Source of the DNA: Pelistega sp.
GTDB taxonomy: Bacteria; Pseudomonadota; Gammaproteobacteria; Burkholderiales; Burkholderiaceae_B
Length of the DNA: 47,419 bases
Reading direction: 5' to 3'
Assembly: GCA_030538255.1 (NCBI GenBank)
Contig: JAUNUI010000003.1
Coordinates: forward strand, 51,348-98,766
Part shown: positions 8,205-40,232 of the stretch, in pieces
How positions within the stretch are numbered: the first letter of the stretch is position 1
Layout: each line of letters begins with the position of its first letter
Translations under genes and position numbers: made by a program
Notes under the pieces: model-generated
The model's input: only the letters and a program-made list of their open reading frames with translations
What the model was told of the DNA's origin: nothing
Databases searched by the model: none

Positions 8205-8272
8205 CAAACTATCTGTTGCAGCATAATCAAACTATCTGTGACAGTGTATCTATCTGTGACAGCGTACTATCT
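8205..8272 (-). repeat. Short tandem repeats running from the MFS stop codon
   Basis: CTATCTGTGACA-like units begin at 8209, 8232, 8250 and 8267. The copy at 8267 contains the stop codon of the minus-strand MFS gene. Read on the minus strand, each copy ends in ACAGATAG or GTAGATAG, so the stop context has been multiplied downstream of the gene. Confidence 0.7.
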
Positions 8273-9493
8273 ACGCCGCATCAGCACATACACCAGCGTT
8301 CCGACCGCCAACACCAGTGCGCACATCAAGAACACTGATGAATACATATCAATGCCCTTGAACGGCAGTACGCGCTGGGCTTGTCCCGAGACGCCCTGCA
8401 TAAAGGCAATGCCTAAGAACATGGCGGTATTGCACAAGGCCATGGCGCGGCCTTGCATATCGGCGGGGTAGACGTCTTTCGCATCGGCCAATTGCCACAC
8501 GGAGTTGCTCGTAGCGATGGCAATAATCACTGCCATAGCCACGGTTAACCAGACATTCTGACTAAAAATCAAGACGATAAAGCCTGCCACAATAATCCAC
8601 GTGACGATCGATAAATAGGGGTAGCGCTTACCTGAGCCAGGATCGAATCGACCAAAAAGCGATGGACTAAAAAGGGAGACGATGGACAATACTAGCGCCA
8701 AGTTCCCTGCAAAGACCAAGCTTTCTTGATGGCGTTCTACTAATAAGGGACCGAGCCATAGTCCACGGAAGGTAATGAAGGCGGCGTAATTGACGAAGAG
8801 TAAGGCCAAAATTGCTGGGGTGGCTTTTATCCTTAATAAGTCTTTATAGCCCAACATGGCCTTATACACCATCAGAAACTTTTCTTTTAAGCTTGTACGG
8901 CCTTCTTGCACATGCTGATCAATATTACGCACTGAGGCAAAGATAACAACCCACGATATGGCACTGGCGATAGCAAGTAGGTAAAAGCAAGTACGCCATC
9001 CGTAGACTTCGCTTATCCATGCGGTGGGGGTCGAGGTAAAGATTAAACCTAAACTACCTGTTCCCAGAGCAAGCGCATACATAGGGGCGAAGTCTTTGGC
9101 AGGGAAGTGTTTCGCAATCAGCACCATGCAAACCAAGAAGGCGGGAGCACAACCAAAGCCTAGTAATATCTGTCCCCATAGCAATGCATCGGGTGAGGTA
9201 GCCGTAGCAGAGAGGACTGCACCCAGAATCGTAAAGGGCGATATGGCAAGGATGGTTTTACGAATCCCAAAGCAATCGACCAAGATTCCTACTAAGAGCT
9301 GCAAGCAGCCAAAGGCAATATGGAAGGAGCCAACAATAGAGGCGAGTTGGTGATTATCGAGGAAAAACTCTTCACGCAGTGGTACCGATAAAATACCGCC
9401 CAAGGTGCGATACGCCTGGCTTAAGACAAAACCACTTAATAAGAAAAAAAGTATGAGTTTTAAATTTCGATTACTGGGAACAGGGTTAGTCAT
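8267..9493 (-). CDS. MFS transporter
   Basis: An inner-membrane secondary transporter of 408 aa with about 12 hydrophobic segments, typical of the major facilitator superfamily. The loop 2-3 motif reads GILVDCFGIRKTI (about residues 68-80), matching the GxLaDrxGxrkxl motif A. The ATG is preceded by a weak ribosome site. The substrate cannot be assigned from the sequence. Its position near catabolic genes suggests organic acid or aromatic uptake or efflux, which is inference only. It stands alone on the minus strand, convergent with the P450 and divergent from the CaiB gene at 10137. The 3' end runs into tandem copies of its own stop-codon context. Confidence 0.88.
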   Translation of the reverse strand: MTNPVPSNRNLKLILFFLLSGFVLSQAYRTLGGILSVPLREEFFLDNHQLASIVGSFHIAFGCLQLLVGILVDCFGIRKTILAISPFTILGAVLSATATSPDALLWGQILLGFGCAPAFLVCMVLIAKHFPAKDFAPMYALALGTGSLGLIFTSTPTAWISEVYGWRTCFYLLAIASAISWVVIFASVRNIDQHVQEGRTSLKEKFLMVYKAMLGYKDLLRIKATPAILALLFVNYAAFITFRGLWLGPLLVERHQESLVFAGNLALVLSIVSLFSPSLFGRFDPGSGKRYPYLSIVTWIIVAGFIVLIFSQNVWLTVAMAVIIAIATSNSVWQLADAKDVYPADMQGRAMALCNTAMFLGIAFMQGVSGQAQRVLPFKGIDMYSSVFLMCALVLAVGTLVYVLMRRR

Positions 9494-10136
9494 TTGCTAT
9501 AAGGTGCCTAATAAATTATGGGTCTACTTGGTCACCTTGCAAATGAGCACGCTTAGTTAAGAATCAGCTCGTGTATCCATATGCCAGCTTGAGCGCTAGG
9601 ACAATATGGCAGATAGTGTCTCTTGCCCGGGGATCAGTCGTTAATAATGTTTATATATTTGCTATTGATTATGCGCAATTTTGTAGTGCGGGTCAATATC
9701 CCGCTATGCAGTTGTATGTCTTAACTGCACAGTATCAATGGTGTTAGCGCAATGGTTTTAACTTAATGGAAGTAGCTTAATGGTGTTAACTTAAGGCGAA
9801 GCGCTTAAGTCGCATCAAGATTAGTTGCATAGGAGCTCGATGGTGCTAGCCTTATAGGCAAGGCCGAATCATTCTGTGATGAGCTGGGGGACTGTTGAGT
9901 AAATTCAATACCAGATAATTAAACCACTTTATGGCGCACTGCTCTGCGACTGTAAAAGTGTAGACTGTACTTGAACTTGGCAGCTGCGCCTTTTCCCCCG
10001 TCTTCCAGCTGATACTGAATCAATATCAATTAATTAAAAAATAATATTAGACAGCTATTAAAGAAAATCATAAGCTAAAGTCTAAGTGATACGAAAACTG
10101 TATTAACCAACATAACGATAATGGATTGAGACAAGC
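9494..10136. other. Divergent intergenic region (MFS / CaiB)
   Basis: This 643-nt region carries the 5' control sequences of two divergent genes. A 28-bp direct repeat occupies 9752-9779 and 9780-9807 (about 21 of 28 identical), with a half copy from 9738. The 120 nt before 10137 are A/T-rich and probably hold the promoter of the CoA-transferase operon, but I see no clear -35/-10 pair. No gene is visible. Confidence 0.5.
9738..9807. repeat. 28-bp tandem direct repeat, 2.5 copies
   Basis: Two adjacent 28-nt units (9752-9779, 9780-9807) share ATGGT, TTAACTTAA and a GCTTA end. A 14-nt partial copy precedes them. They lie in the MFS/CaiB divergent region and could be regulator-binding repeats or a slippage product. 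Confidence 0.6.
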
Positions 10137-11318
10137 ATGGCGGCCTTAGAAGGGATTCGAGTACTGGATTTAACCACGGTGATTTTTGGACCGTATGCTT
10201 CCCAAGTTTTAGCGGACTATGGCGCGGAGGTCATTAAGCTAGAAAGCTTTACCGGTGACTCAACGCGTTACACAGGCCCAGCGCAAGAACAGGGGATGTC
10301 GGCCATGTTTTTGAGTGTGAATCGCAATAAGAAAAGTATTGCGGTGGACTTAAAGACACCCGAAGGAATTGCCATCATCAAGGACTTACTTAAGACCTGT
10401 GATGTCTTTATGCATAATATTCGCCCACAAAAAATTGCCAAAATTGGTTTAAGTTATGAGGATGTTAAGGCTTTAAATCCTGAACTTATTTATGCGGGTT
10501 TATATGGTTTTGGGTCTGATGGTCCGTATGCTGGTCGTCCTGCTTATGATGACATTATCCAAGGTTTAAGTGGAGTGCCTGACTTGATTCTCAAGCAAAG
10601 TGGTACTCCACGTTATATGCCAACCATTGCGGCAGACAAGTCCTGTGCCTTGATTGCTGCACATGCCATTCTTGCTGCTTTATTTCAACGTACGCGTACT
10701 CAGCAAGGTCAGTTTATTGAGATTCCTATGTTCGAATCGATGGTGAGCTTTACCTTGCTCGAGCACTATTATGATCAACATCTTGTTGATATGGAACCGC
10801 TTAAGCAAGGTTATGCGCGTGTCTTATCAGAACATCGCAAACCCTATACCACGAGTGATGGTTATTTGTGCGTTATGCCTTATACGGATAAGCATTGGCA
10901 GACTCTATTTAAGGCAACAGGAAATCCTGATTTAGCTGATGATCCGCGCTTTAGCAATATCGCAGAGCGAACTCGTCATATTAATGAACTGTACGATATT
11001 GTCGGCAAGTTAATGCTGACACGTACGACTCAAGAATGGTTGGCATTTTTTGAAGAACACGACATTCCGAATGCGGCAATGAATACCTTGGCTTCGATTG
11101 GTGAGGATCCGCATTTACAAGCGGTAGGTTTTTTTCAAGATATCCAAGATAGCAGTGGGCATTATCGCTTTCTCAATAATCCAGTATATATGGAACAGTC
11201 AAAAGTCGATGTGCAAATGCCACCGCGCCTCGGTGAACATACGCAAGAAATTTTACAAGGATTAGGTATTTCGAGTGAAACACTTAACTCTTTATATTCT
11301 AACAATATTATCAAATAA
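10137..11318 (+). CDS. CaiB/BaiF family CoA-transferase
   Basis: A family III CoA-transferase of 393 aa that would move CoA between carboxylates through an aspartyl-CoA thioester. Family features are the N-terminal GIRVLDLTTVIFGPYASQVL and GAEVIKLE segments, NRNKKSI (63-69), the YGFGSDGPYAGRPAYDD stretch (123-139), and a candidate catalytic Asp167 in IAADKSC. The substrate is not predictable. The ribosome site is weak (TTGAGAC before the ATG). It heads a plus-strand run with a MaoC-fold protein, two acyl-CoA dehydrogenase subunits and two Bug binding proteins. This fits an uptake, CoA-activation and beta-oxidation-like module, probably under the LysR gene at 16412. Confidence 0.9.
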   Translation: MAALEGIRVLDLTTVIFGPYASQVLADYGAEVIKLESFTGDSTRYTGPAQEQGMSAMFLSVNRNKKSIAVDLKTPEGIAIIKDLLKTCDVFMHNIRPQKIAKIGLSYEDVKALNPELIYAGLYGFGSDGPYAGRPAYDDIIQGLSGVPDLILKQSGTPRYMPTIAADKSCALIAAHAILAALFQRTRTQQGQFIEIPMFESMVSFTLLEHYYDQHLVDMEPLKQGYARVLSEHRKPYTTSDGYLCVMPYTDKHWQTLFKATGNPDLADDPRFSNIAERTRHINELYDIVGKLMLTRTTQEWLAFFEEHDIPNAAMNTLASIGEDPHLQAVGFFQDIQDSSGHYRFLNNPVYMEQSKVDVQMPPRLGEHTQEILQGLGISSETLNSLYSNNIIK

Positions 11319-11334
11319 TTTACAGGAGCAGACA

Positions 11335-11793
11335 ATGTCTAATCATCCAACATTAGGTTTAGGTTTTTACTGGCAAGATTTAAAAGAAGGCCAGGTGTTT
11401 CAGACGATTCGCCGTACTATCACTGAGACGGATATCGTGAATTTAATTTCATGCACAGGCATGCTTGAAGTGATTTTTATTGATACAACCTACGATGGCG
11501 CGATTCAAGGTCGCCCTGCACCTGGTGCCTTAACTTACGGCATTATTGAAGGGATTTTAATGCAGACCATGGTGCAAGGCACAGGTCTGGCTTTACTTGA
11601 AGTGCATAAGAAGATGCTGGCTCCTGTCGTTGCGGGTGATACAGTGTGGGCAGAGGTGACGATTACGGGTGTGAAACCAACTTCTAAGAAAAATCGTGCG
11701 GTGGTGAGCTCACATGTTGATGTGAAAAATCAGCGTGGTGAAGTGGTGATTAGCTATGATGTGAAGCGCATGCTAGCAGGTCGCGACGAGTAG
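11335..11793 (+). CDS. MaoC-fold (hot-dog) acyl dehydratase-like protein
   Basis: A single-domain MaoC-like protein of 152 aa. The ATG at 11335 is chosen because AGGAG (11324-11328) precedes it. An in-frame ATG at 11275 would overlap the upstream gene and lacks a site. The hot-dog pattern is present (ITETDIVNLISCTGMLEVIFID, with PAPGALTYGIIEG and VVAGDTVWAEV). However, the catalytic D-x-N-P-x-H of R-hydratases is replaced by M-L-E-V-I-F, so the Asp and His are absent. It may be non-hydratase, a thioesterase-like binder, or a partner subunit of another MaoC protein. It lies 16 nt after the CaiB gene and 26 nt before the dehydrogenase. Confidence 0.85.
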   Translation: MSNHPTLGLGFYWQDLKEGQVFQTIRRTITETDIVNLISCTGMLEVIFIDTTYDGAIQGRPAPGALTYGIIEGILMQTMVQGTGLALLEVHKKMLAPVVAGDTVWAEVTITGVKPTSKKNRAVVSSHVDVKNQRGEVVISYDVKRMLAGRDE

Positions 11794-11819
11794 AATAACA
11801 TCCAGGATAGGGGAAGTTA

Positions 11820-12974
11820 ATGTTGTTTGATGCTTTTACCGTAGCCACTATTCCAGCCCAAGAGCAGGAGTTTCGCCAAGAGGTGCGTAAACTGGTGAGT
11901 GGTTTTGTGAAGAATATTTCCTACTGTGAGCGAGCTCGTTCTTGGATGGGATTTAGTGAGGAGTTTAGTCGTCTCCTGGCTCAAAACAATTGGCTAGGTC
12001 TGACTATTCCCAAGCAATATGGGGGTGCAGAGCGAGGCTACTTTAGTCGTTTTATTATGTCTGAAGAGTTGCTTTGTGCTGGGGCGCCAGTGTCAGCACA
12101 TTGGATTGCTGATCGTCAAAGTGGTCCACTGATTCTACGCTACGGTACTGAAGAACAGAAGCAATTTTACTTACCGAAGATCTGTCGTGCTGAGGCATTC
12201 TTCTGTATCGGTATGAGTGAGCCGAATTCGGGATCGGACTTAGCAAGTATTCGTAGTCGTGCGACTCGAACCGAAAAGGGTTGGTTGCTTAGCGGTTCGA
12301 AAATTTGGACCACGAATGCGCATAAATCACATTATATGATTGCCTTGGTGCGGACTTCAGGTGAGAGTGGTGATCGTCATAAGGGCCTCTCGCAAGTGAT
12401 TGTGGATTTGTCACTGCCAGGTGTAACGGTTCGTCCTATCGAAGATGCGATGGGCGATGCGCATTTCACCGAGGTTTTCTTTAATGATGTGGAACTTGCT
12501 GAAGATGCCTTAATTGGCACCGAAGGCAGTGGCTGGGAACAAGTGAATGCGGAGCTGGCTTTTGAGCGCAGTGGACCAGAGCGTATTTACTCCAGTATGA
12601 GTCTGGTTGAGAGTTTTGTAAAAGAGTGCCGTGAGGCGGGTTTGGATGATCCGATTACGCGTCAGGTTCTGGGGGGTATTGTGGCGCGCTTGGGTGTGCT
12701 ACGGATGATGTCTTTATCGATTACTGCTAAATTGAACCAGGGTGAGCATCCTGCGCTTGAGGCCTCTGTGGTCAAAGATTACGGTACACAATTAGAGCAG
12801 GATATCCCTGAACTCATTGCGAATCACTATGGACGCAATCCGGATTGGCAACCATCAAGAGACTTTATTAATACCCTGAATTATGTCAGTCAGATTTGCC
12901 CAACGTATTCACTACGTGGTGGTACTAGAGAGATTCTACGTGGCATTATTGCACGCGGCTTAGGGCTACGATAA
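11820..12974 (+). CDS. Acyl-CoA dehydrogenase, large (alpha-type) subunit
   Basis: An FAD-dependent acyl-CoA dehydrogenase of 384 aa that introduces an alpha-beta double bond into an acyl-CoA. It has the flavin/substrate signature GMSEPNSGSDLAS (131-143), KIWTTNA (161-167) and a C-terminal LRGGTREILRGIIARGLG. The Glu just before the GT found in medium-chain enzymes is Gly here, whereas Glu249 in AFERSG matches the alternative catalytic Glu of isovaleryl-type and FadE alpha-type enzymes. AGGGGAA precedes the ATG. The degenerate paralogue that follows 44 nt later suggests an alpha2-beta2 heterotetramer. This is known for several mycobacterial adjacent FadE pairs and is inferred here. Confidence 0.92.
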   Translation: MLFDAFTVATIPAQEQEFRQEVRKLVSGFVKNISYCERARSWMGFSEEFSRLLAQNNWLGLTIPKQYGGAERGYFSRFIMSEELLCAGAPVSAHWIADRQSGPLILRYGTEEQKQFYLPKICRAEAFFCIGMSEPNSGSDLASIRSRATRTEKGWLLSGSKIWTTNAHKSHYMIALVRTSGESGDRHKGLSQVIVDLSLPGVTVRPIEDAMGDAHFTEVFFNDVELAEDALIGTEGSGWEQVNAELAFERSGPERIYSSMSLVESFVKECREAGLDDPITRQVLGGIVARLGVLRMMSLSITAKLNQGEHPALEASVVKDYGTQLEQDIPELIANHYGRNPDWQPSRDFINTLNYVSQICPTYSLRGGTREILRGIIARGLGLR

Positions 12975-13018
12975 GTAGCTTGTTATAGGGTTAAACAAAT
13001 AAGGATGATGAGATAAAG

Positions 13019-14119
13019 ATGGATAATACCTTACAACAAGCTGTGTTAGCAGCGGTCACGGACGTACTGAATGACCATCAAGAAAATGGCACCTTAGCGA
13101 ATTTATCGGTGGTGCAATTACAAGATTTAGCAGCGCTTTTTCAAGAGTCGGGTTTTTTCAATTTACTCTTGCCTGAAGAGCGGGGTGGTGCCGAATTGAA
13201 TTTGCAACAGTGCTTAGCTGTATTACTGCAAGAGGGTGTATATGCTTTACCGATTGCCTTAGCAAGTACCAACTTAGCGAATGCTTGGTTGCATGCTCAG
13301 GGGCTTGATCTGGCGATGGGTGCTGTTGCGATTGAGAGTGCGTGCGCGGCTGCCGGGTTGAATGGTTCAGCGGCTGAAAATAGCACTCAGTCTAACAGCG
13401 TGGCACAGGATGGGGCTAATGGACATGAATCAAGCAAGAAGGGGCTAATTTCAATCGGCATTAAAGCACAGAGCTTCACTCACCTCACACCGCAGATTTT
13501 ATTAGCAGTCGCAGATAAAGCCTATCTACTAGAGACGACTCATTATCTTACTGACTCAGTTGATAGCGATCATAGTGCTTTATGGTTGAATTTAAATCTT
13601 GAGCACGCCAAGGCCTTAGAAGTGAATGCTGAAGCTGTGCAGAAATTACACGACTTGGCAGTACTTTCTAGTATTGCAGTAAGCCAAGGAGCAATGCGCC
13701 AATTATTAGAGATGACTGTTAAGTATGCAGCGGAGCGTACGCAATTTGGTCGTAAATTGAGTCAGTTCCAGGCGATTCAACAACAGTTAAGTGTGATGGC
13801 TGAATGCGTCTGTAGCGCACAGATGGCTGCTGAACTGGCCTATTACAGTGACAGTACTATACCCAATAAAAACCACCTGATTCTGGCTAAACATCAGATG
13901 AGTCTGGTGGCTAATCAAGTCGCCAATATTGCCCATGCTGTTCATGGTGCGATTGGCATTACCAAAGAATATCCACTGCATTTTTATACCCAAATTATTC
14001 GCCAAAACCGCTCACGAGGAGGAAGTGAGATGTATTGGGCCGAACAATTGGGCGCAGCGGTATTACAGAGTGATAAGACTGTACTCGAAATTTTGAGTGA
14101 GGATTTACTCGTGAGTTAA
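13019..14119 (+). CDS. Acyl-CoA dehydrogenase family protein, degenerate (beta-type) subunit
   Basis: A diverged acyl-CoA dehydrogenase paralogue of 366 aa. The C-terminal flavin-binding helical domain is recognisable (ERTQFGRKLSQFQAIQQQLS, about residues 240-259; HAVHGAIGITKEYPLHFY near 309-326). The middle domain lacks the SEPxxGSD flavin signature and instead carries an Asn/Ser-rich insertion (about 114-142). The catalytic Glu is not evident. Such partners usually complete the FAD site of an active neighbour, so it probably pairs with the protein at 11820. AAGGA at 13001 lies rather far (13 nt) before the ATG. Confidence 0.85.
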   Translation: MDNTLQQAVLAAVTDVLNDHQENGTLANLSVVQLQDLAALFQESGFFNLLLPEERGGAELNLQQCLAVLLQEGVYALPIALASTNLANAWLHAQGLDLAMGAVAIESACAAAGLNGSAAENSTQSNSVAQDGANGHESSKKGLISIGIKAQSFTHLTPQILLAVADKAYLLETTHYLTDSVDSDHSALWLNLNLEHAKALEVNAEAVQKLHDLAVLSSIAVSQGAMRQLLEMTVKYAAERTQFGRKLSQFQAIQQQLSVMAECVCSAQMAAELAYYSDSTIPNKNHLILAKHQMSLVANQVANIAHAVHGAIGITKEYPLHFYTQIIRQNRSRGGSEMYWAEQLGAAVLQSDKTVLEILSEDLLVS

Positions 14120-14142
14120 TACGTCATCTGAGGAGACAAACA

Positions 14143-15120: not shown

Positions 15121-15184
15121 GCTTACTGCACTAGAACTTCAATGCTAATAGATTTTTAAAAAGAACAAGTAATAAGGAGATAGA

Positions 15185-17644: not shown

Positions 17645-18607
17645 ATGTCGTTATTTACTAAGTTTATGGTCACGGTGGCTGCCGTTGCGGGTACTGCTTT
17701 TATCAATCCTGCTTTCGCTAAATATCCTGAGAATACGATTAGTGTGACTGTGTCAACCGAGCTGACGACAGGGGCGGATGTTACCGCGCGCTTTCTGCAA
17801 CGCCGCGTACAAGAGAGTCTTGGCATGATGCTAACGGTTGATGCGATTATTGAAGAAGGTGGTATCAAGGCGGTTGAACATGTAAAAGCGGGCAAGCCTG
17901 ATGGTTACACACTCTTGCTCACTAATAGCTTTCCAGTAGCGAGAGATGTGGCACTTGGCAAAAAGCTACCCTACGATCCTGTTCAGGATTTAACCCCGCT
18001 GGTGAAATTGTCCTACAACCCAATGGCTGTGGTCGTCGCTAAGGGCTCAGAAATCGAGACGGTGGATCAATTAGTTGAGGCAGCAAAGCAATCAGGTTCT
18101 TTAAGTTACGGTAGCGCGAATGCTTCAGCGCAGGTGGCTACTGAATTGTTTTTAAAGCTTGCCGATGTGAAAGCAAAGCCGACAAGCTACGATGATGTCG
18201 CCTCAGCTCTGAAAGCGCTTGAAGAGAAGAAAATTGATTTTATGTTTGCGGATACAGATTCTTTAATGACCTTGGCGGTTAACCATCCACTACGTGTGAT
18301 TGCGACCACGGCAGATAAGCGCTATAAGCATGCACCGAATGCACCAACCTTACAAGAGTTGGGCTATAAGGATTACTATATGGTCGATTGGCTTGCTATC
18401 TTCGGTCCTGCAGGCATGAGTGAAGAGGCGCAGAAAGAGGCGAGTGAAGCGCTACTCACAGTGTATACAGAGAAGCGTAGTCTGAACTTCTTAGAGCGCA
18501 CGAACTGGGAAATCTTCCCTGGTAATTACAAGGAATTGGCCGATTTTCAGAAAGCTGAAATTCAACGCTGGTCTGAGGCCGCTCAACAAGCTAATCTGAG
18601 CCAATAA
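17645..18607 (+). CDS. Divergent Bug/TctC-like protein with altered ligand loops
   Basis: A 320-aa protein with a signal peptide (to about residue 25, PAFA) and overall Bug fold similarity to the protein at 15185: KPDGYTLLLTNSFPV, LPYDPVQDLTPLVKLSY, YGSANASAQVATELFLK and YKDYYMVDW are shared or close. The ligand-contacting loops have changed. The PPGSGTDT loop is TELTTGADVT, the VENRPGG loop is VDAIIEEGG, and HVPYRG is PTSYDDV. It may bind a different ligand or act as a sensor or accessory protein rather than a carboxylate binder. AAGGA precedes the ATG. Degenerate copies of its last codons follow the stop. Confidence 0.85.
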   Translation: MSLFTKFMVTVAAVAGTAFINPAFAKYPENTISVTVSTELTTGADVTARFLQRRVQESLGMMLTVDAIIEEGGIKAVEHVKAGKPDGYTLLLTNSFPVARDVALGKKLPYDPVQDLTPLVKLSYNPMAVVVAKGSEIETVDQLVEAAKQSGSLSYGSANASAQVATELFLKLADVKAKPTSYDDVASALKALEEKKIDFMFADTDSLMTLAVNHPLRVIATTADKRYKHAPNAPTLQELGYKDYYMVDWLAIFGPAGMSEEAQKEASEALLTVYTEKRSLNFLERTNWEIFPGNYKELADFQKAEIQRWSEAAQQANLSQ

Positions 18608-18773
18608 ATTTAGACAGAGTAAATCCAGACTTTATGAGTCTGTTTGATGATTATCGGACCTCATATAATCTGATTTAATAAGGTCTGGCTTAATACTATC
18701 AGACTCAATACAAGCATCACTATCTAATCATGCGCAATTAAAACTGCGTCAATATAATCTGAGCCAATAAATT
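18592..18773 (+). repeat. Copies of the Bug gene 3' end
   Basis: The 19-nt sequence spanning the last codons and stop (18592-18610, TAATCTGAGCCAATAAATT) recurs perfectly at 18755-18773. Between them are degenerate versions near 18666 (TAATCTGATTTAATAAG), 18697 (TATCAGACTCAATAC) and 18724 (TAATCATGCGCAATTAA), roughly every 27-32 nt. Confidence 0.75.
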
Positions 18774-21398: not shown

Positions 21399-21416
21399 TC
21401 TTATTTAATCTCAAAA

Positions 21417-21663
21417 ATATCACTACGAAGAACGATATTAATTAACTTCATCCATATCAGCACGAACAACGATATGGTTTAATGACAACGATACCATTAC
21501 GAAGAACGATATTAATTAATTTTAGCAATACCATTAAAAAGACGGTATTGTTTAACATCAGCTATACCATTGCTCAGAACGATATTATTCAATTCTAGCA
21601 ATGCCACTACGAAGCACGATATTATTTAATTTCAGAAATACCATTGCTTAGCACAATAATACC
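21417..21663 (-). repeat. Seven tandem ~37-bp copies of the hydratase gene 3' end
   Basis: Units start at 21417, 21454, 21491, 21528 (36 nt), 21564, 21601 and 21638 (partial). The last two overlap the coding end of the hydratase gene, whose stop is at 21622-21624. Read on the minus strand, the gene ends IVLSNGISEIK-stop. The extra units encode degenerate versions such as IVLRSGIARIE-stop, IVLSNGIADVK and IVLRSDIFEIK-stop. The gap between the two operon genes is therefore made of repeated gene end. Confidence 0.9.
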
Positions 21664-23623: not shown

Positions 23624-24556
23624 ATGCGCTACGACCTGACTGACTTAAAACTATTTATTAATATTGGGGAGACTTCCAACCTGACGCGTGCCGCTGAGAA
23701 AATTTTTCTCTCTTTGCCTGCGGCCAGTGCGCGCATTAAGAACTTGGAAGACTCTCTTAAGGTGCGCCTTTTAATCCGTCAGGTGACAGGGGTGAAGATG
23801 ACGCCAGCGGGTGAGATTCTCTATAAGTATGCGAAATCGGTGTTTCAACAGTTAGAGTCTTTACATACGGAGCTACAGCCTTTTTCCGAAGGGATTAAGG
23901 GTAAGTTGCGTATTTTGGCCAATACCTCAGCGACCTATTCGTTCGTGACCGAAGCGCTAGGCAACTTTTTACAAGATAATCCTGATGTGGATATTGAGTT
24001 AGAAGAGAAAATCACGCGCGACGTATTGGCCGCGATTCGTAATGGTACAGGTGATTTAGGGCTTGTTTCAGGCAATCTGGACATGTCCGGTCTGGATGTA
24101 ACGCCCTTATTCAAAGATGAATTAGTGGCGATTGTGCATGCAGAACATGAGTTAACCGACCGCGATACGGTAAGTTTCGAAGAGCTTGTCGATAATTACC
24201 AATTTGTTGGTATCAATCAAGATAGCGTGCTTCAGACTTTCTTGGATGAGCGCGCGCATCAACTCGGTAAGCGCATTCATCAGCGCGTCTATGCGGGTGG
24301 CTTTGATGTGGTGGCGCGCATGGTCTCAGCGAAAATCGGAGTGTCGATTATGCCGCTCGAGTGCACGTTGAAATTAGGCCATATCGCAAATATTAAGGTG
24401 ATTAAATTAAGTGACCGATGGGCCTGCCGTGAGCGTTATATTTGCCGTCTACCAGGACGTGATTTGCCACCCTATGCGGAGAAATTCATTCAAAGCGTCT
24501 TGGATGTGGTCAAGAAAATGGGACTGAATGACGCCAAAGCAGTCGCTGAAAAATAA
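23624..24556 (+). CDS. LysR-type transcriptional regulator
   Basis: A 310-aa LysR regulator. The HTH (residues 1-62) contains DLTDLKLFINIGETSNLTRAAEKIFLSLPAASARIKNLEDSL, and the effector domain spans about 90-300. It is transcribed divergently from the SDR/hydratase/CaiB operon with a 180-nt shared promoter region that contains palindromes, so it very probably controls that operon. The ribosome site is weak. Its last codons are copied several times after the stop. Confidence 0.93.
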   Translation: MRYDLTDLKLFINIGETSNLTRAAEKIFLSLPAASARIKNLEDSLKVRLLIRQVTGVKMTPAGEILYKYAKSVFQQLESLHTELQPFSEGIKGKLRILANTSATYSFVTEALGNFLQDNPDVDIELEEKITRDVLAAIRNGTGDLGLVSGNLDMSGLDVTPLFKDELVAIVHAEHELTDRDTVSFEELVDNYQFVGINQDSVLQTFLDERAHQLGKRIHQRVYAGGFDVVARMVSAKIGVSIMPLECTLKLGHIANIKVIKLSDRWACRERYICRLPGRDLPPYAEKFIQSVLDVVKKMGLNDAKAVAEK

Positions 24557-24652
24557 ATGTCCTATCGCTAGCAAGTGCTCGCTGAAAAAAAGTCTGCCGT
24601 TATTAAGTACTCGCTGAAAATTAATGAAGTCGCGTATAAGTACTCAGCTAGA
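24537..24652 (+). repeat. Degenerate copies of the LysR gene 3' end
   Basis: The gene-end sequence AAGCAGTCGCTGAAAA (24537) recurs as AAGTGCTCGCTGAAAA (24573), AAGTACTCGCTGAAAA (24605) and AAGTACTCAGCTAGAT (24638). Spacings are 36, 32 and 33 nt. The first copy encodes the last residues AVAEK just before the stop. Confidence 0.75.
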
Positions 24653-24948
24653 TGTACTCTTAAAGTGAGTGTTTTTCAGATCTACCACAAATTCTCTAGC
24701 GCAAACTCGTCACAGTAGCTCGAGTCTTGCGTATCCGTGATAGTGGGTCTAATGAGAGGGTAAGCCATGCGCACCTTCTGAAACGCGATACCATATGTTG
24801 CTTAATATGTTTAAACAGGGTAAGCCATACATGCCTTCTGAAACCCTGAGCATTAAGTTCGAAAGATTTGAACTTGTTTGTGTGTATTCTCATGCATAAT
24901 ATATCTTCAAGCTATATAAAATCACATAAAAAATACAATGGAGACATT

Positions 24949-29008: not shown

Positions 29009-29206
29009 ATGTTTAATAAGATCGCAAGTGCAGGTAAGTATCTTGGCCAAACCGCTCGCTTAATGGTGGGCGTACCTAACTATGATACCTACCTTCAACA
29101 TATGCGTAGACAGCATCCTGATAAAACCCCAATGACGTATAAGGAGTTTTATGATAATCGTGTGAATGCACGATTTGGCGGAGACGGTAGCTTTCGTTGT
29201 TGTTAA
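29009..29206 (+). CDS. YbdD/YjiX family small protein
   Basis: A 65-aa cytoplasmic protein of the YbdD/YjiX family, which accompanies CstA/BtsT-type transporters. The sequence contains ARLMVGVPNYDTYLQHMRRQHPDKTPMTYKEFYDNRVNARFG and ends GSFRCC. Relatives are reported to be needed for activity of the linked transporter. AGGAG lies before the ATG. It is 137 nt after cstA and almost certainly co-transcribed. Degenerate copies of its 3' end follow. Confidence 0.92.
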   Translation: MFNKIASAGKYLGQTARLMVGVPNYDTYLQHMRRQHPDKTPMTYKEFYDNRVNARFGGDGSFRCC

Positions 29207-29295
29207 GCGATGGCTTATTGTTTAATAGCTGTCGTGGCTTCACCGCATTGGATGCGGCGTCGTAGTAATAAGGCGATGGCTTGTTGTTAAATAGC
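29207..29295 (+). repeat. Direct repeat after the YbdD-like gene
   Basis: A 23-nt unit beginning GCGATGGCTT and ending AATAGC occurs at 29207-29229 and 29273-29295 with two mismatches. Its TTGTTGTTAA core resembles the gene end at 29196-29206. Confidence 0.6.
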
Positions 29296-33354: not shown

Positions 33355-33372
33355 TCAGTTTGAACAATGGGC

Positions 33373-34545: not shown

Positions 34546-34547
34546 GC

Positions 34548-34934
34548 TTATTCTCCTACGGGGCTAAAGACAAGGATAGCCTGCTCGCCATCTTGTTGCA
34601 CATGGGCTTGGACTTGTTGGCCGATATGGACGTCTTCAGCGGAGACTTTTTCCACGCGACTCATTAAGCGTACGCCTTCGTCAAGATCAATCAGCGCCAC
34701 ATTGTAGTTGCCACCGTCTTCAGCTTTGCGACGAACCACAGTCGTACTATAAACAGTACCTAGACCTGTGGGCTCAATCCAGCTTAGGTGGTCAGAGCCA
34801 CAGTGTGGGCAAATCATGCGAGGGTAGAAGATATGCTTATTGCAATCTTGGCATTGTTGGATTTGGAACTTACCTTGCTTGAGTAAGTCCTGGTACTGCT
34901 TTTCAGCACCACATGCTGTCTCAGTTGTCATCAT
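34548..34934 (-). CDS. DUF35 zinc-ribbon/OB-fold protein
   Basis: A 128-aa protein with an N-terminal rubredoxin-like zinc ribbon (Cys28, Cys31, Cys42, Cys45 in CQDCNKHIFYPRMICPHCG) and a C-terminal OB-fold (about 55-125). The start at 34934 is preferred because the family is about 130-140 aa and the 50 residues that a further-upstream ATG would add look non-homologous. A neighbouring ATG at 34931 is equally possible. DUF35 proteins bind acyl-CoA as partners of thiolase-like enzymes, and the partner gene starts 2 nt after this stop. Confidence 0.88.
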   Translation of the reverse strand: MMTTETACGAEKQYQDLLKQGKFQIQQCQDCNKHIFYPRMICPHCGSDHLSWIEPTGLGTVYSTTVVRRKAEDGGNYNVALIDLDEGVRLMSRVEKVSAEDVHIGQQVQAHVQQDGEQAILVFSPVGE

Positions 34935-35090
34935 TCTCTGCGTTATAGTGGTTAAGGTTGAAGCTAGTATGTGAATTATTCGGGGCTTTGACAATTCACA
35001 AATAACAAAGAGCCTCTTAAATTTCGCTGAATAATGGTTTGTCCTAGTATGGATAACCATAGTTTTGTCAGTCATTATTGCCAAGTTCGG

Positions 35091-35153
35091 GTAGGAGCAG
35101 GCAGAAGCAGGTGCAGGTAGGTGCAGGTGCAGGTAGGAGTAGGTGCTTGTGGG
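35091..35153. repeat. GCAGGT/GGTAGG-type purine-rich microsatellite
   Basis: Interrupted hexamer-like repeats (GCAGGT, GGTAGG, GAAGCA variants) run for about 60 nt on the plus strand in the DUF35/YkvI gap. Such tracts slip readily and may vary between strains. Confidence 0.6.
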
Positions 35154-35309
35154 TGTTTATGTCTGTTATAGCGTGGGTGAGTGCTTCAGATTGTCAAGGG
35201 ATAACTTGGTCTTGTACGTGGAAAACGCTATTTTTGGCCTTGGAGGACCTCATGCCTTGCCTAGGGATAACCATAGGATTTGTCTAAAGAAAAGACATAC
35301 GGCTTAGTC

Positions 35310-35345
35310 TGTATATACAATACGAGTTACATGGTTGTGTATACA
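35310..35345 (+). promoter_or_regulatory. Two GntR-like palindromes before the YkvI-like gene
   Basis: TGTATATACA (35310-35319) and TGTATACA (35338-35345) are perfect palindromes, centres 27 nt apart. They resemble the TNGTNNNACNA operators of FadR-type GntR regulators. They lie about 110 nt before the permease start. The regulator is not in the window. Confidence 0.45.
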
Positions 35346-35366
35346 ATATTGATGGCATAAATAATT

Positions 35367-35401
35367 TATGGCTCTTTGCTATGGCAAGAGCCATATTTTT
35401 T
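35367..35401 (+). terminator. Terminator/attenuator candidate before the YkvI-like gene
   Basis: TATGGCTCTT (35367-35376) pairs with AAGAGCCATA (35386-35395), with a 9-nt loop and a six-T run to 35401. It sits 50 nt before the permease start with no plus-strand gene upstream, so it could be an attenuator or end a small RNA. Confidence 0.7.
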
Positions 35402-35451
35402 GATATATGCGTTATGAGTATAAATAAGCAAAAATACATAGGAGAGAATAA

Positions 35452-36531
35452 GTGAAACAACGTTTTTTAATTGCCATGGCCTATATGTCTGTGGTTATTG
35501 GTGGTGGATTTGCTTCGGGCAGAGAAGTGATTCAGTTTTTTACAGGCTATGGTGTCGGCGGTATTGGCGGCTCATTGATTGCCGCATTTTTATTTGCTTT
35601 TGTCGGTATGCAGATTGCCCAAATCAGCTCGAGAATGAAGATTAAGTGTCATGACAAGGTCTTAAGCAGTTTATTTGGTCCGACGGGCGGCGCCTTAGTG
35701 GATTATATTTTAATCTTCTTCTTATATGGCGTCGGCGTGATTATGCTAGCAGGTGCGGGTGCGACATTGCATCAACACTTTGAGTGGAACTTTATGGTGG
35801 GTTCGCTCATTATGACGGCCTTCGTGATCTTGACCCTGTGCTTAAATCTGAAGAGCATTATCTATTTAATTAGTTTGGTGATTCCATTCTTGCTCTTAAT
35901 TATTTTGGCGATTATGGTGTATTCGATTTTTACAGGTAATTATGATTTTGCCGCGCAAAATGTCCATGCTGCGCAATATGAGGTGATTGAGTTATTGGGT
36001 TGGACTGTACCAAGTTGGGCCTTAAGTGGTGTGTTGTATGCGGCGTTCAACGTGGGGGTAGGTTTCCCTATGCTGGCGGTGATTGGTGGCATGACAGAAT
36101 CTGACCGTGAGGCAGGGCAAGGTGGTATTTTAGGTGGCTTAGGTCTAGGCTTTCTGATTATCTTATTGAATTTCACCTTGTTCCTAAATATCGATAAATT
36201 ACACGGAGTGGAAATCCCTACCTTATTACTTGCAGGTAAAATCCATGCTTGGTTAGCGTATCTAACCGTAGTTGCACTGATCGCCATGATTTATAGCACG
36301 GCCGTGGGTATGTTCTTTGCCTTCACCGTACGTTGGGCCGAGCCGAATACCATGAAGTTTAAATTGGTGGCGATTGTTTCTACCTTGGTCGGTTTTGGTC
36401 TAAGCCGCTTTGGCTTTGGCAAGATGGTGGGCTCTGTATATCCGCTAATGGGTGTGCTTGGCATTATCATTATTATCGCCCTGACGATGTATTGGTGGAA
36501 AACTCGCAAGGCCGAGAGAAGCATGGCATAG
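35452..36531 (+). CDS. YkvI-like family inner-membrane transporter
   Basis: A 359-aa hydrophobic protein with about 10 membrane segments, similar to the YkvI family (COG3949, LeuT/APC-fold permeases). The N-terminus MAYMSVVIGGGFASGREVIQFF has the unwound-helix Gly-rich signature of that fold. It starts with GTG at 35452 behind a GGAGAG site; no better ATG is present. The substrate is unknown. It forms a single-gene unit with a hairpin before it and a very strong terminator after it. Confidence 0.88.
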   Translation: MKQRFLIAMAYMSVVIGGGFASGREVIQFFTGYGVGGIGGSLIAAFLFAFVGMQIAQISSRMKIKCHDKVLSSLFGPTGGALVDYILIFFLYGVGVIMLAGAGATLHQHFEWNFMVGSLIMTAFVILTLCLNLKSIIYLISLVIPFLLLIILAIMVYSIFTGNYDFAAQNVHAAQYEVIELLGWTVPSWALSGVLYAAFNVGVGFPMLAVIGGMTESDREAGQGGILGGLGLGFLIILLNFTLFLNIDKLHGVEIPTLLLAGKIHAWLAYLTVVALIAMIYSTAVGMFFAFTVRWAEPNTMKFKLVAIVSTLVGFGLSRFGFGKMVGSVYPLMGVLGIIIIIALTMYWWKTRKAERSMA

Positions 36532-36632
36532 GACGAGTAGAGTTCTTATATTTTGCGGATTTATTCGTGAGTCTTGAGCAAGGTTCGAGGCAAGACATAT
36601 AAATATAATCTAGCAGATATAGATCAGCGACC

Positions 36633-36672
36633 AAAAAAGCTGTTGAGCATTGTGTTCAACAGCTTTTTTTTT
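36633..36672 (+). terminator. Strong rho-independent terminator
   Basis: A perfect 14-bp stem, AAAAAAGCTGTTGA (36633-36646) with TCAACAGCTTTTTT (36656-36669), has a 9-nt loop and T's through 36672. It ends the YkvI-like transcript. Confidence 0.95.
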
Positions 36673-36824
36673 ATGCTTGGATGGTAGATGGAGACGCAAT
36701 ATGAGTGGATACGGGATAACCATATGTTTTAAAAGCGCTTAACGGGGGGTTCCAAATTAATTAATTGCGAGAATCCTAGGAATAGGGTTTGATAGAGTTA
36801 AATTTAAGATTTTAGGAGACGGCT

Positions 36825-38012
36825 ATGGATTTAAATTTGCGCCCAGAAGAGGAGGCGTTTCGCGCAGAGGTACGTGAGTTTGTGCAAGCATCACTGCCAC
36901 AGGATATCAGTGATAAGGTTTTTAAGCATCAACGCCTTGATAACACAGACTATATTCGTTGGCACAATATTCTCACGGATAAGGGCTGGGGTGCACCGAG
37001 CTGGCCGGTTGAGTTTGGTGGCACAGGTTGGACGGCTGTACAGAAACTGATTTTCGAAATTGAATGCTTTAAGGCAGGCACGCCACGCCTTTTGCCATTT
37101 GGTTTAAGTATGATTGGCCCCGTCTTGATGAAATATGCTAGCCCTGAGATGCAAGAGCGCTTTATTCCACGTATGTTACGTATCGAAGACTGGTGGTGCC
37201 AAGGCTATTCGGAGCCAGGCTCAGGTTCAGACTTAGCCTCATTGAAAACGCGTGCTGAGAAAAAAGCGGACGGCTATATTGTGAACGGCCAGAAAACCTG
37301 GACGACTTATGGTCAATATGCCGATTGGATGTTCTGTCTTGTGCGCACGGATCCTGAGGCGAAACCACAACGTGGTATCTCTATGCTCTTGATTGATCTG
37401 CGTCAGCCTGGTGTGACCGTGCGTCCGATTAAGACGCTGGATGGTGGTCATGATGTGAATGAAGTCTGGCTAGAGAATGTACATGTGCCATTTGAAAACT
37501 TAGTCGGTCAGGAAAATGAAGGCTGGACCTATGCGAAGTACTTGCTTGGTCATGAGCGTACAGGGATTGCGGGGATTGGCCTATGCTACCGTGAATTACA
37601 AATTCTGAAAAACCTTGCTCAAGAAGTGCAGTGGAACGGTAAGCCGGCCAACGAAGATAGCCGCATGCAAGATAAGATTAGTTTGATTGAGGCGGATATC
37701 CTTGCTTTAGAGATGATGTTATTACGAGTGGCTGCCGATAGTACCCAAGGCCCTGGCCCTCAGGCGTCGGTCTTAAAGATTCGCGGTTCAGAAATTCAGC
37801 AAGATTTAGCTCGATTACAACTTGAGGTAATGGGTTTGTATAGTTGGCCGTATTCGCCATCATGGCTTGAGGCGGGTTCGGATGTGTTTGGTCCTGGGCA
37901 TGAGTTTGCCGCAGCGGCGAGTGCGAATTATTTTGATATGCGCAAGACCTCCATCTATGGTGGCACCACCGAAGTGCAAAAAGGCATCATCGCCAAGATG
38001 CTTTTAGATTAA
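36825..38012 (+). CDS. Acyl-CoA dehydrogenase, large subunit (pimeloyl-CoA dehydrogenase-like)
   Basis: A 395-aa acyl-CoA dehydrogenase. GYSEPGSGSDLASL (127-140) is the flavin/substrate signature, and QKTWTTYGQYADW (156-168) and KTSIYGGTTEVQKGIIAK lie at the C-terminus. As in the protein at 11820, the Glu before GT is Gly. Glu244 in GHERTG fits the alternative catalytic position. It resembles the large subunit of pimeloyl-CoA dehydrogenase-type heteromers. GGAG lies before the ATG. The partner subunit is at 38217 and an enoyl-CoA hydratase at 39387, giving a compact beta-oxidation unit next to the phenylacetate genes. Confidence 0.93.
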   Translation: MDLNLRPEEEAFRAEVREFVQASLPQDISDKVFKHQRLDNTDYIRWHNILTDKGWGAPSWPVEFGGTGWTAVQKLIFEIECFKAGTPRLLPFGLSMIGPVLMKYASPEMQERFIPRMLRIEDWWCQGYSEPGSGSDLASLKTRAEKKADGYIVNGQKTWTTYGQYADWMFCLVRTDPEAKPQRGISMLLIDLRQPGVTVRPIKTLDGGHDVNEVWLENVHVPFENLVGQENEGWTYAKYLLGHERTGIAGIGLCYRELQILKNLAQEVQWNGKPANEDSRMQDKISLIEADILALEMMLLRVAADSTQGPGPQASVLKIRGSEIQQDLARLQLEVMGLYSWPYSPSWLEAGSDVFGPGHEFAAAASANYFDMRKTSIYGGTTEVQKGIIAKMLLD

Positions 38013-38216
38013 TAGCTGAAGAATTAACCTGAATGGCGAGGATTAGCTGTTGAGCGAGACGACTGAAGTTAAGCGTATTGATGTTGACAGGATCGCTCTA
38101 AGTCCACTGAACTACAGCTTTAGCTATCAGCTTCTTGCTAAAGCTTATGGGTTCAAAAGAGAGCTCCACTGAATCAGCGCCACGAGAATGACAAAAACAC
38201 CGAATGAGGTAAGACA

Positions 38217-39326
38217 ATGGATTTTAAATATAGTGAAGAGCAGCAGATGCTCAGTGAAAGTTTACGCCGCATGGCGAAGGATGTGTGGAGTTTTGAGCAA
38301 CGTCGTCAACGCCAGAAGAGTGCAGAGCTTGATGGTACGACATGGCAGCACTTGGCTGAACTCGGGGTGTTGGGTCTCACCATTCCGCAAGAGTTTGACG
38401 GATTTGGTGAGGGGCCAGCCAGCTTATTGGCGATTCATCTTGAGTTGGGACGTGCGCTGGTTGCAGAGCCTGTGATTGCGAGCTCGGTGCATAGTAGCGC
38501 TATATTACGAGCCAGTAGCCAAGCGCAGGCACATGAACTTTTACGTCACTTAGCAGCGGGTGAGTCGGTCTGCACGGTGGCGCTTGGCGAAAGTTCGCGT
38601 GTTGATAATCTGGGTAAGATCCAGACTCTAGCTCAAGCGCAAGTGGATAGCTATGTCTTGAGTGGCACTAAGCATAATGTCGCTTGGGGTGCGCAGGCTG
38701 ATTACTTTATTGTGAGTGCTTTGCTTGAGGGGCAACTCGCGGTGTTCTTGGTGCCTAGCGATGTCGAGGGTGTGAGTAAGCAGGACTTCCCAACCATGGA
38801 TGGTATGCGTTGTGCGAGTGTGAGCTTGAATCAGCTTGTGCTCGCTAAGGATAGTCTGCTACTTCAGGGTCAGCGTGCCTTAGAAGTTTTGCAGCAAGCA
38901 GAGCAGGAGGCAATTGCCGCGGTATGTGCGCAGACGGTTGGTATGATGGAGCAGCTCCTAGCGATTACGATTGAGTATCTTAAAACACGTCAACAATTTG
39001 GCAAGGCACTTGCAAGTTTCCAAGTGATTCAACATCGCTTAGCAGATATGTATATCCAGATTGAAGTGGCGAAGTCAATGGCATTTGTTGCAGCGCAGGC
39101 CTTAGGCTTGGCGGATGCAAAAGAGCGCCAGCGTCGTATCAGTGCGGCTAAGATTAAGGTGATGCAAGGGGCCAAGTTTATTGGCGAGAGCGCCGTGCAA
39201 TTGCATGGGGGTATGGGGATGACGGATGAGCTTGAGGTTGGAGATTACTTTAAGCGAATGACACTTAATGAGTTCCATTATGGCGATTCAGTGTATCATT
39301 TATCCCAATTAGCTATTTTAAAATAA
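38217..39326 (+). CDS. Acyl-CoA dehydrogenase, small subunit (pimeloyl-CoA dehydrogenase-like)
   Basis: A 369-aa acyl-CoA dehydrogenase family protein. The C-terminal domain is well kept (YLKTRQQFGKALASFQVIQHRLADMYI, about 259-285; AVQLHGGMGMTDELEVGDYFKRM, about 325-347). The middle domain is diverged and lacks the SEPxxGSD motif. It matches small or beta partners that complete the flavin site of an active large subunit. It lies 204 nt after the large subunit gene, with a 9-bp hairpin (38116-38145) between, and 60 nt before the hydratase. Confidence 0.9.
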   Translation: MDFKYSEEQQMLSESLRRMAKDVWSFEQRRQRQKSAELDGTTWQHLAELGVLGLTIPQEFDGFGEGPASLLAIHLELGRALVAEPVIASSVHSSAILRASSQAQAHELLRHLAAGESVCTVALGESSRVDNLGKIQTLAQAQVDSYVLSGTKHNVAWGAQADYFIVSALLEGQLAVFLVPSDVEGVSKQDFPTMDGMRCASVSLNQLVLAKDSLLLQGQRALEVLQQAEQEAIAAVCAQTVGMMEQLLAITIEYLKTRQQFGKALASFQVIQHRLADMYIQIEVAKSMAFVAAQALGLADAKERQRRISAAKIKVMQGAKFIGESAVQLHGGMGMTDELEVGDYFKRMTLNEFHYGDSVYHLSQLAILK

Positions 39327-39386
39327 CCTAAGTATGCCATTTGTTCATCAAGTGGCTATTGGATTTTATGTCAAAGGATCAGGGCA

Positions 39387-40193
39387 ATGGATATTATTGA
39401 AAATACGTTCGAAACAATTAAGTTTGAGTACGATAAAGGTGTCGCATTTATTACTTTAAACCGACCTGATCGTTTAAATAGTTTCACGCAGCAGATGCAT
39501 GATGAATTGAAATCCGTGATGAAGATTCTGCAATCACGAGTTGATTTGCGCGGTGTGATTTTAACGGGTGCTGGTCGCGGTTTCTGTGCGGGTCAAGACT
39601 TAGCTGAGCGTAAGCCTTTGCCTGAAGGACAGATGCGTGATATGGGTGAGAGCTTAGAGAAAAACTATAAGCCCTTAGTACTCGCTATTCGTGCTTTACC
39701 TGTCCCTGTGGTTTGCTTTGTGAATGGGGTAGCAGCGGGTGCTGGTGTGAGTTTAGCCTTGGCCAGTGATATCCTAATTGCTGCGAAGTCCGCTAGTTTC
39801 TTGCAGGCTTTTGCCAAGTTGGGCTTGGCGCCTGATGCAGGCTCTAGTTATTTCTTGCCAAGAATCATTGGTACTCAACGGGCTATGGCGGCCTCTATGT
39901 TGGCCAAACCGATTACGGCGGAACAGGCTTTAGAGTGGGGCTTGGTCTGGCAACTGGTTGAGGATGATCAGTTAGGCAGTGAAATTGAAGCTATGAAGCA
40001 GACTCTTGCTAATGGCCCAACGCGTTCTTACGCGGCGATTAAAAATTTGATCTATACCTCAGGTCAGATGACGCTTGAAGAACAGATGAACTTAGAGACG
40101 GAAACACAACGGGAGCTTGGTTATACCGAAGATTACCAAGAAGGTGGGGCGGCTTTCCGAGAGAAACGTCCTGCGGTATTTAAGGGTAGATAG
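39387..40193 (+). CDS. Enoyl-CoA hydratase/isomerase (PaaG-like)
   Basis: A 268-aa crotonase-fold protein. The oxyanion-hole segments are GAGRGFCAGQDLAER (62-76) and GVAAGAGVSLALASD (113-127), and the acid residue lies in GLAPDAGSSYFLPRIIG. It closely parallels the PaaG at 44453 (IPDTGGTWFLP), so a ring isomerase or double-bond isomerase role is as likely as hydration. AAGGA lies before the ATG. It is the third gene of the acyl-CoA dehydrogenase unit. A copy of its 3' end follows, then two terminators. Confidence 0.9.
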   Translation: MDIIENTFETIKFEYDKGVAFITLNRPDRLNSFTQQMHDELKSVMKILQSRVDLRGVILTGAGRGFCAGQDLAERKPLPEGQMRDMGESLEKNYKPLVLAIRALPVPVVCFVNGVAAGAGVSLALASDILIAAKSASFLQAFAKLGLAPDAGSSYFLPRIIGTQRAMAASMLAKPITAEQALEWGLVWQLVEDDQLGSEIEAMKQTLANGPTRSYAAIKNLIYTSGQMTLEEQMNLETETQRELGYTEDYQEGGAAFREKRPAVFKGR

Positions 40194-40232
40194 TGTATAC
40201 GAAGCGCCTTGTAGTATTTAAGGGTAGATAGT
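40177..40232 (+). repeat. Tandem copy of the hydratase 3' end
   Basis: TATTTAAGGGTAGATAG, covering the last codons and stop, occurs at 40177-40193 and again at 40215-40231, 38 nt apart, with looser similarity upstream (CGTCCTGCGG versus CGCCTTGTAG). Confidence 0.85.

Follow-up and report, generated by a model that had tools for sequence, protein, structure and literature searches.

What duplicates the ends of genes in this genome? In a 47,419-nucleotide (nt) stretch of Pelistega sp. DNA (GenBank assembly GCA_030538255.1, contig JAUNUI010000003.1, positions 51,348 to 98,766; hereafter the window), an earlier note had described the 3' ends of several unrelated genes, stop codons included, recurring a short distance downstream, and had attributed this to a genome-wide process acting at stop codons. 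We find that the enrichment of gene-end copies is real but is not peculiar to stop codons, and that the duplicated stops are very probably marginal cases of a wider buildup of short duplications in intergenic DNA. These duplications exceed their controls, have units private to each locus, and fall into two size classes: tandem arrays (class a) and repeat-spacer-repeat loci (class b). The explanation that best accounts for the whole, to which we assign a probability of about 0.5, combines intergenic duplication by replication slippage (class a) with integration by Cas1-Cas2, the adaptation proteins of clustered regularly interspaced short palindromic repeat (CRISPR) systems, at sites outside CRISPR arrays (class b).

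The genome comprises 2.95 Mb in 47 contigs, of which 1.96 Mb were analyzed, with 1605 genes predicted there by a simple coding-score caller; the window sits in contig C21. In the genome-wide test, the last 40 nt of each gene were aligned to its own downstream noncoding DNA, with length-matched re-pairing as the null and a cutoff at an alignment score of at least 24; genes tested had at least 60 nt of downstream noncoding DNA and lay more than 300 nt from any masked CRISPR array. We found that 47 of 1037 gene tails recur downstream, where 1.3 are expected; tails exceed gene starts and internal positions, the controls within the genome that the earlier note had proposed, and re-paired sequences as well. 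Gene starts (first 40 nt against upstream DNA) gave 5 matches in 1073 (2.4 expected), and internal positions gave 6 in 1081 (2.3 expected). Among the 47 tail matches, 32 have a copy that runs through to the final base of the stop, and the lags of tail copies are broad, from 16 to 174 nt.

Although these figures alone would favor a process that copies gene ends downstream, perhaps involving terminating ribosomes or transcript ends, self-duplication is more frequent in noncoding DNA beyond the stop than in the tails. The first 40 nt after the stop recur in the following noncoding DNA in 86 of 885 cases (3.0 expected), and the last 40 nt before starts recur in the preceding DNA in 23 of 959 (2.7 expected). 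Repeat coverage has no peak at the stop: it is about 1% at −60, 2.8% over the final 20 nt of the gene, and 5.5% over the next 20 nt, and climbs to 10 to 11% at +80 to +140 (11% at +100) before settling at 7 to 9% (7 to 8% by +200). Upstream of starts, coverage stays near 1% over the nearest 20 nt and does not rise to 8% until some 160 nt away. Overall, short-lag repeats cover 0.4% of coding and 6.2% of noncoding DNA, with convergent gaps (9.6%) covered more than tandem (6.3%) and divergent (4.3%) gaps; this low-coding, convergent-rich distribution is as predicted by duplication combined with tolerance. Because there is no peak at the stop and noncoding DNA duplicates itself more, the process is not directed at stops but is one of genome-wide intergenic duplication, and the shape of the coverage is that of a process running everywhere, with survivors where nothing is damaged. 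A duplication across a promoter or inside a gene would mostly be removed, whereas one that spans a stop would survive, since the copy leaves the protein intact; the stop-containing copies are thus those that selection tolerates. The coverage profile and the noncoding control together lead us to reject stop-directed copying, which is largely refuted. The note's companion suggestion, that no single repeat family is at work, holds: there are no cross-locus similarities among 384 repeat units at an E value of 1e-3 or below, so the same unit does not appear at many loci as it would in a dispersed family (REP, BIME, or MITE). Most of the original observation holds up, but reading it as a process at stop codons was mistaken.

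At individual loci in the window, the last 40 nt of a gene were compared with its own downstream noncoding DNA and with the downstream DNA of other genes, the comparison set being every second gene of sufficient length, with a minimum attainable p of 1/(n+1). Six genes had been named as carrying gene-end copies, and five have them significantly: the Bug gene (p = 0.0030, n = 337), the hydratase (p = 0.0036, n = 275), the LysR gene (p = 0.0042, n = 237), the enoyl-CoA hydratase (p = 0.0034, n = 291), and the YbdD-like gene (p = 0.011, n = 357). The MFS gene end has no significant downstream copy (p = 0.79, n = 237); the 18-nt repeat behind it has only AGATAG in common with the gene end. Units of 32 to 38 nt, said to be frequent, occur at the hydratase (37), LysR (36 and 32), and enoyl-CoA hydratase (38) loci, and not at the MFS (about 18), Bug (163), or YbdD (66) loci. 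The hydratase array starts inside the 3' end of the gene (stop at 21622) and extends to the next gene, with repeat segments at lags of 37, 74, and 110. At the LysR locus, CGCTGAAAA occurs at 24544, at the gene end, and again at 24580 and 24612, with spacings of 36 and 32. The gene-end copies identified by the tail test, together with repeat calls from Tandem Repeats Finder (TRF), are as follows.

18592..18607, plus strand: final 16 nt of the Bug gene, with its stop (tail test).
18755..18770, plus strand: exact 16-mer copy of the Bug gene end, 163 nt downstream (tail test).
21401..21661, minus strand: hydratase array of about 6.6 degenerate 37-nt units (TRF period 37, score 217).
24544..24627, plus strand: LysR 3' end (stop ends at 24556) and two downstream copies (sequence and tail test).
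40163..40235, plus strand: enoyl-CoA hydratase 3' end duplicated with period 38, 40163-40197 and 40201-40235 (repeat lag and tail test).

The YbdD-like locus has a different structure, in which two repeats flank a spacer that is unlike them, and a second locus of this class sits in the gap that separates the LysR gene from the following one.

29194..29229, plus strand: YbdD-like locus, first 36-nt repeat, across the stop (repeat-spacer-repeat class, period 66; C21:80541).
29230..29259, plus strand: YbdD-like locus, 30-nt spacer unlike the repeat.
29260..29295, plus strand: YbdD-like locus, second 36-nt repeat.
24754..24784, plus strand: second repeat-spacer-repeat locus (24754-24844), first 31-nt repeat (period 60; C21:76101).
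24814..24844, plus strand: second repeat-spacer-repeat locus, second 31-nt repeat (period 60).

Loci of this kind were collected by rule: noncoding, a score of at least 16, a lag of up to 130, a spacer of at least 20 nt unlike both repeat and flanks, no shorter internal period, and one locus per 90 nt; the 20-nt spacer minimum leaves out pairs with shorter gaps (median gap 14.5 nt at lags of 30 to 58, n = 26). This yields 46 loci, of which 40 have periods of 59 to 72 nt, one of 75, and five of 87 to 107, and none of the 46 falls at 36 to 58. Within the band the counts are 59 (2), 60 (5), 61 (6), 62 (1), 63 (2), 65 (2), 66 (9), 67 (4), 68 (1), 69 (3), 70 (1), 71 (2), and 72 (2), with maxima of 11 loci at 60/61 and 13 at 66/67, and 8 loci at 69 to 72. 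In a stricter set (score of at least 20, lag up to 200), 23 of 29 loci lie at 59 to 72, seven at exactly 66 and five at exactly 61; against uniform lags of 40 to 200 the band has a p of about 1e-15, and the evidence for the band itself is overwhelming. These 23 loci have CRISPR-like dimensions, with repeats of 35.7 ± 3.9 nt at an identity of 0.89 and spacers of 29.6 ± 4.8 nt.

The evidence for single-lag peaks within the band is moderate. In the stricter set, simulation given the band returns p = 0.0009 for the two top lags jointly and p = 0.011 for the top lag alone; at a score of at least 16, lag 66 has p = 0.0017 (uncorrected), {60,61} has p = 0.022, and the top lag by simulation has p = 0.023. 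The lag-66 peak was first seen in the first 0.83 Mb, and in the next 1.13 Mb it accounts for 5 of 56 spaced pairs at lags of 50 to 80 (p = 0.034); there {60,61,66}, a set picked after seeing the data, accounts for 13 of 56 (p = 0.002), and for 13 of 49 when lags are restricted to 59 to 77 (p = 0.037). A first core set of 28 loci, from which 8 had been left out by eye, was superseded by the rule-based sets, although the spacer G+C and spacer-source tests below used it. Three of 32 candidates were dropped as tandem repeats with an indel; a decayed I-E repeat pair (C21:39702) was dropped as well. When every spaced pair is considered, the identity remaining in the spacer is close to the level of shuffled controls; the rule-based sets, by contrast, excluded loci whose spacer resembled the repeat or the flanks. 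Two loci contain a third repeat, and their two spacers differ from each other (C44:29703, periods 61/61; C19:143877, 61/59). Two unlike repeat-spacer-repeat structures lie end to end at C9:54507-54708, the start of one being within 3 nt of the end of the other.

Comparators were partial, 60 to 200 kb per genome and 275 kb of noncoding DNA pooled; they take in 68 of 74 named loci (those over 8 kb), with a 1.8-kb G030 stretch excluded, and their figures come from pooled gene calls because locus-by-locus calling overcalled noncoding DNA. Under a looser rule they contain one spaced pair at 57 to 73 nt (lag 59) and another at 56, both in G045; the lag-59 sequence resembles a dispersed palindromic repeat. 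With a score of at least 22, without the rules, and at lags of 55 to 80, there are 38 spaced pairs here and 3 in comparators, the latter tandem-like. Coding repeat-spacer-repeat pairs at 57 to 73 nt number three.

Tandem arrays (class a) are similarly concentrated in this genome, with 183 arrays of head-to-tail units, as in minisatellites, in 321 kb of its noncoding DNA, compared with 21 in the comparators, or about 57 and 7.6 per 100 kb. The comparator arrays are distributed as G005 4, G002 1, G003 6, G006 1, G004 2, G045 0, G087 1, and the named loci 6. A density close to that of this genome is seen in its congener G003, where 11 kb contain 6 arrays, one being a run of T; densities in the others are lower. 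Tail matches scoring at least 24 occur in G003 (2/30) and G002 (1/50), with none in G005 (96), G006 (31), G004 (42), G045 (37), or G087 (25). Unit sizes are bimodal, 12 to 26 nt in 103 arrays and 32 to 47 nt in 57, with a dip at 27 to 31 (5), and unspaced arrays are scarce at 60 to 66 nt (7/183). Junctions of two-copy tandem pairs show no clear microhomology signal. In the window, the arrays not already described are the following.

8231..8272, minus strand: 18-nt tandem repeat directly after the MFS stop, not a gene-end copy (TRF).
7909..8034, no strand assigned: 30-nt tandem array in the same gap as the MFS repeat (TRF).
35093..35146, no strand assigned: 16-nt tandem array in an intergenic gap (TRF).

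Among side observations, the hexamers GCTTAA, CTTAAG, and AGCGCT are about threefold over-represented in intergenic DNA of this genome relative to base composition. A 34-nt array in G006 (L171:13756-13885), in which each unit has an inverted repeat (AAACCC...GGGTT), resembles a multiplied terminator.

Class (a), in both unit-size modes, could arise through slipped-strand replication, perhaps worsened by loss of exonuclease VII (ExoVII). In Escherichia coli, loss of single-strand exonucleases (ExoI, ExoVII, and RecJ) raises tandem-repeat rearrangement. The gene for the ExoVII large subunit, xseA, had no hidden Markov model match in the whole assembly, and E. coli XseA had no tblastn match in the 1.96 Mb; xseA was found in all six other genomes of the genus, and among six repair families searched it is the only one that distinguishes this genome from its relatives. 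ExoI was not found here or in five of the six others, and hence does not distinguish it. Loss of the PolA 5' exonuclease is rejected, with the domain present in 7/7 genomes of the genus, as is loss of MutS or RecJ, both likewise in 7/7 (the G004 frames are split and carry a stop). We regard xseA loss as a lead rather than a result.

For class (b), the periods suggest a connection with CRISPR adaptation. The genome has three CRISPR-Cas systems: type I-E (106 repeats, period 61), type I-F (100 repeats, period 60), and a type III-like locus (C33) with csm6, cas1, two cas2-like genes, and a 37-nt repeat at periods of 67 to 73. The I-E array begins about 310 nt before the window.

1..6220, no strand assigned: type I-E CRISPR array, 29-nt repeats, period 61 (106 repeats in total).

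Array gaps are 61 in 102 of 105 cases (I-E) and 60 in 97 of 99 (I-F), and the C33 array has two gaps of 67. Another array of the type III-like kind lies on C11 (26 repeats, periods 69 to 72; L248, C11:29973-31774), with a repeat that differs by three bases from the C33 repeat; its reading as a period-66 type II array is ruled out by its periods and by the type III-like cas1 locus with csm6. There are three cas1 genes here, compared with one or none in six relatives. Relatives carry type I-C arrays at 66/67 (G003 and G002) and a type II array at 66 (G006). The class (b) periods of 60/61 and 69 to 72 match this genome's own arrays, the largest class (66/67) matches the systems of relatives, and the genome's own periods explain 14 of 23 stricter loci by themselves (p = 0.20) and 21 of 23 once 66 is added (p = 0.0002).

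Four further observations concern these systems themselves. The I-E cas1 (L262 near 1660; G000:C21 near 50063) has an in-frame TAG, with its N-terminal and longer C-terminal parts matching the family separately, and the I-E system thus may no longer be capable of adaptation. In the C33 array beside cas1, spacers one and two (L258:3157-3262) are identical, as if a spacer-repeat unit had been duplicated. The type III-like cas1 is flanked by two different cas2-like genes (L258:1048-1332 and 2630-2938), the first scoring just below the family cutoff. No phage record matched the I-E array at an E value of 0.01 or below.

We propose that class (b) loci would form through insertion of a prespacer outside CRISPR arrays by Cas1-Cas2, with duplication of the target site, giving ectopic one- or two-spacer CRISPR loci that would then decay. 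We know of no other enzyme that duplicates a target of about 28 to 37 nt around an insert of about 30 nt, and for this reason Cas1-Cas2 is the leading mechanism for class (b); the step itself is tentative, and we put it somewhat short of even odds. A broader version is also possible but somewhat doubtful: adaptation would, over the history of this bacterium, have placed spacers off-target at dozens of chromosomal positions between genes and at gene ends, each time turning a different local sequence into a new private CRISPR-like locus. It would then be a genome-wide mutagen that shapes intergenic DNA and gene 3' ends, and the 32- to 47-nt arrays could result when integration at those staggered nicks aborts and leaves no spacer.

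Several observations weigh against the combined explanation. First, the genome's own array periods explain only 14 of the 23 stricter loci (p = 0.20), a period-66 array is absent from the part of the genome examined, and type I-C and type II cas1 are absent from the assembly; a lost period-66 system is plausible. Second, the sequence features of integration are not evident. Sites resembling the consensus of integration host factor (IHF), a motif expected beside I-E and I-F integration sites, lie near 3 of 40 class (b) loci, compared with 17% of random positions, and near 0 of 14 at lags of 59 to 62; at most 3 of 40 class (b) repeats (0 to 3) resemble any one of six CRISPR repeats at p < 0.05; and palindromes are not in excess in class (b) repeats. 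Third, 28 spacers searched against the 1.96 Mb of the genome gave one 22/23-nt match (E = 2e-4) and no others at an E value of 0.01 or below, where 226 true CRISPR spacers gave 7 matches. Spacers are richer in G+C than their flanks (0.441 and 0.396, p = 0.033), but so are the repeats (0.433, p = 0.018), which makes this test uninformative. Fourth, repeat lengths at lag 60/61 are scattered from 21 to 41, and repeat-pair identities range from 0.78 to 0.95, no pair being over 95% identical; the absence of identical pairs may reflect an old process, or identical pairs may soon be deleted by recombination. For the slippage component, xseB is present and, with the assembly in fragments, xseA may have fallen into a gap; in addition, G003 has frequent tandem arrays despite having xseA.

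The strongest alternative is that both classes are replicative and owe nothing to CRISPR machinery, class (a) arising by slippage and class (b) by a double template switch, back about 66 nt, copying about 36 nt, and returning. The abundance of both classes here and their rarity in comparators are consistent with this, as are the lack of an IHF or repeat-like signature and the failure to find the ExoVII large subunit and ExoI. In-frame coding tandem repeats, moreover, often have units of 33 to 45 nt (15 of the 30 listed), like the second mode of the arrays. However, it leaves the 59 to 72 band, the empty range of 36 to 58, and the maxima at 60/61 and 66/67 unaccounted for, and unspaced arrays are few in that same band; we consider it possible but, on balance, rather doubtful.

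That the spaced pairs are former minisatellites, or variable-number tandem repeats (VNTRs), with diverged middles is unlikely. Tandem arrays are plentiful, some candidates did prove to be tandem repeats with an indel, and the spacer resembled the repeat in 11 of 42 spaced pairs at lags of 55 to 80, but 29 loci are left in which the spacer is unlike repeat and flanks, and neutral divergence would not hold 36 nt at 89% identity while the next 30 nt falls to background. Copying directed at stop codons is very improbable: the excess of tails over starts and internal positions that favors it is outweighed by the absence of a stop peak, the noncoding control, and the breadth of the lags. Paired functional sites kept by selection, such as double operators, are scarcely credible, for although copies about six helical turns apart could suit a regulator, the units are private to each locus and show no promoter bias (25 loci scoring at least 20 at lags of 55 to 75, two of them later dropped, lie in 13 tandem, 7 convergent, and 5 divergent gaps).

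If class (b) does represent ectopic spacer integration, a laboratory reaction becomes a measurable natural mutational force, and a route for the birth of new CRISPR loci with new repeats is suggested. If Cas proteins are not involved, a replication error that prefers a spacing of 60 to 72 nt needs explanation. Either way, the apparent stop-codon process becomes one of duplication and tolerance, the causes of which (ExoVII loss, CRISPR load) are testable across strains.

It is unusual for a genome to carry so many private duplications between its genes, including a class with CRISPR dimensions, and among the literature matches listed, no paper concerns stop-codon duplication, natural genome-wide ectopic CRISPR integration, or the effect of exonuclease loss on tandem repeats. 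Bacterial minisatellites and VNTRs are likewise degenerate head-to-tail intergenic units, although here the arrays are denser and have two unit-size modes with the dip between them. Natural insertions in rice are a related eukaryotic case, and for the small tandem duplications at eukaryotic DNA breaks we know of no fixed filler size. Those break-associated duplications (PMC8355091, PMC5730883) are likewise small and tandem, but they belong to eukaryotic polymerase and end-joining systems. Marine Beggiatoaceae also have many sets of intergenic direct repeats (TAACTGA) in one bacterium, but the excerpted account (PMC4679880) has them sharing one heptamer, whereas the units here are longer and unrelated.

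The closest parallels come from CRISPR biology. In E. coli, off-target Cas1-Cas2 integration, reported by Nivala, Shipman, and Church in 2018, is said to duplicate a repeat-length target around a spacer-length insert at a non-CRISPR site. IHF-like motifs raise nearby noncanonical spacer integration in vivo, according to a passage of PMC9456107 that cites Nivala et al. 2018, a paper also present in the reference lists of PMC11687729 and PMC11394691, and disintegration is described in a passage of PMC8390005 as a possible guard against off-target integration. Viral mini-CRISPR or orphan arrays likewise have one spacer between two repeats; in the excerpted text of the review PMC8616872 the repeats of viral mini-arrays mostly resemble host CRISPR repeats, whereas class (b) repeats are private to each locus and chromosomal. 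Off-target integration in E. coli is reported as a laboratory event aided by IHF-like motifs, whereas the loci described here are natural, old, without an IHF signature, and number in the dozens.

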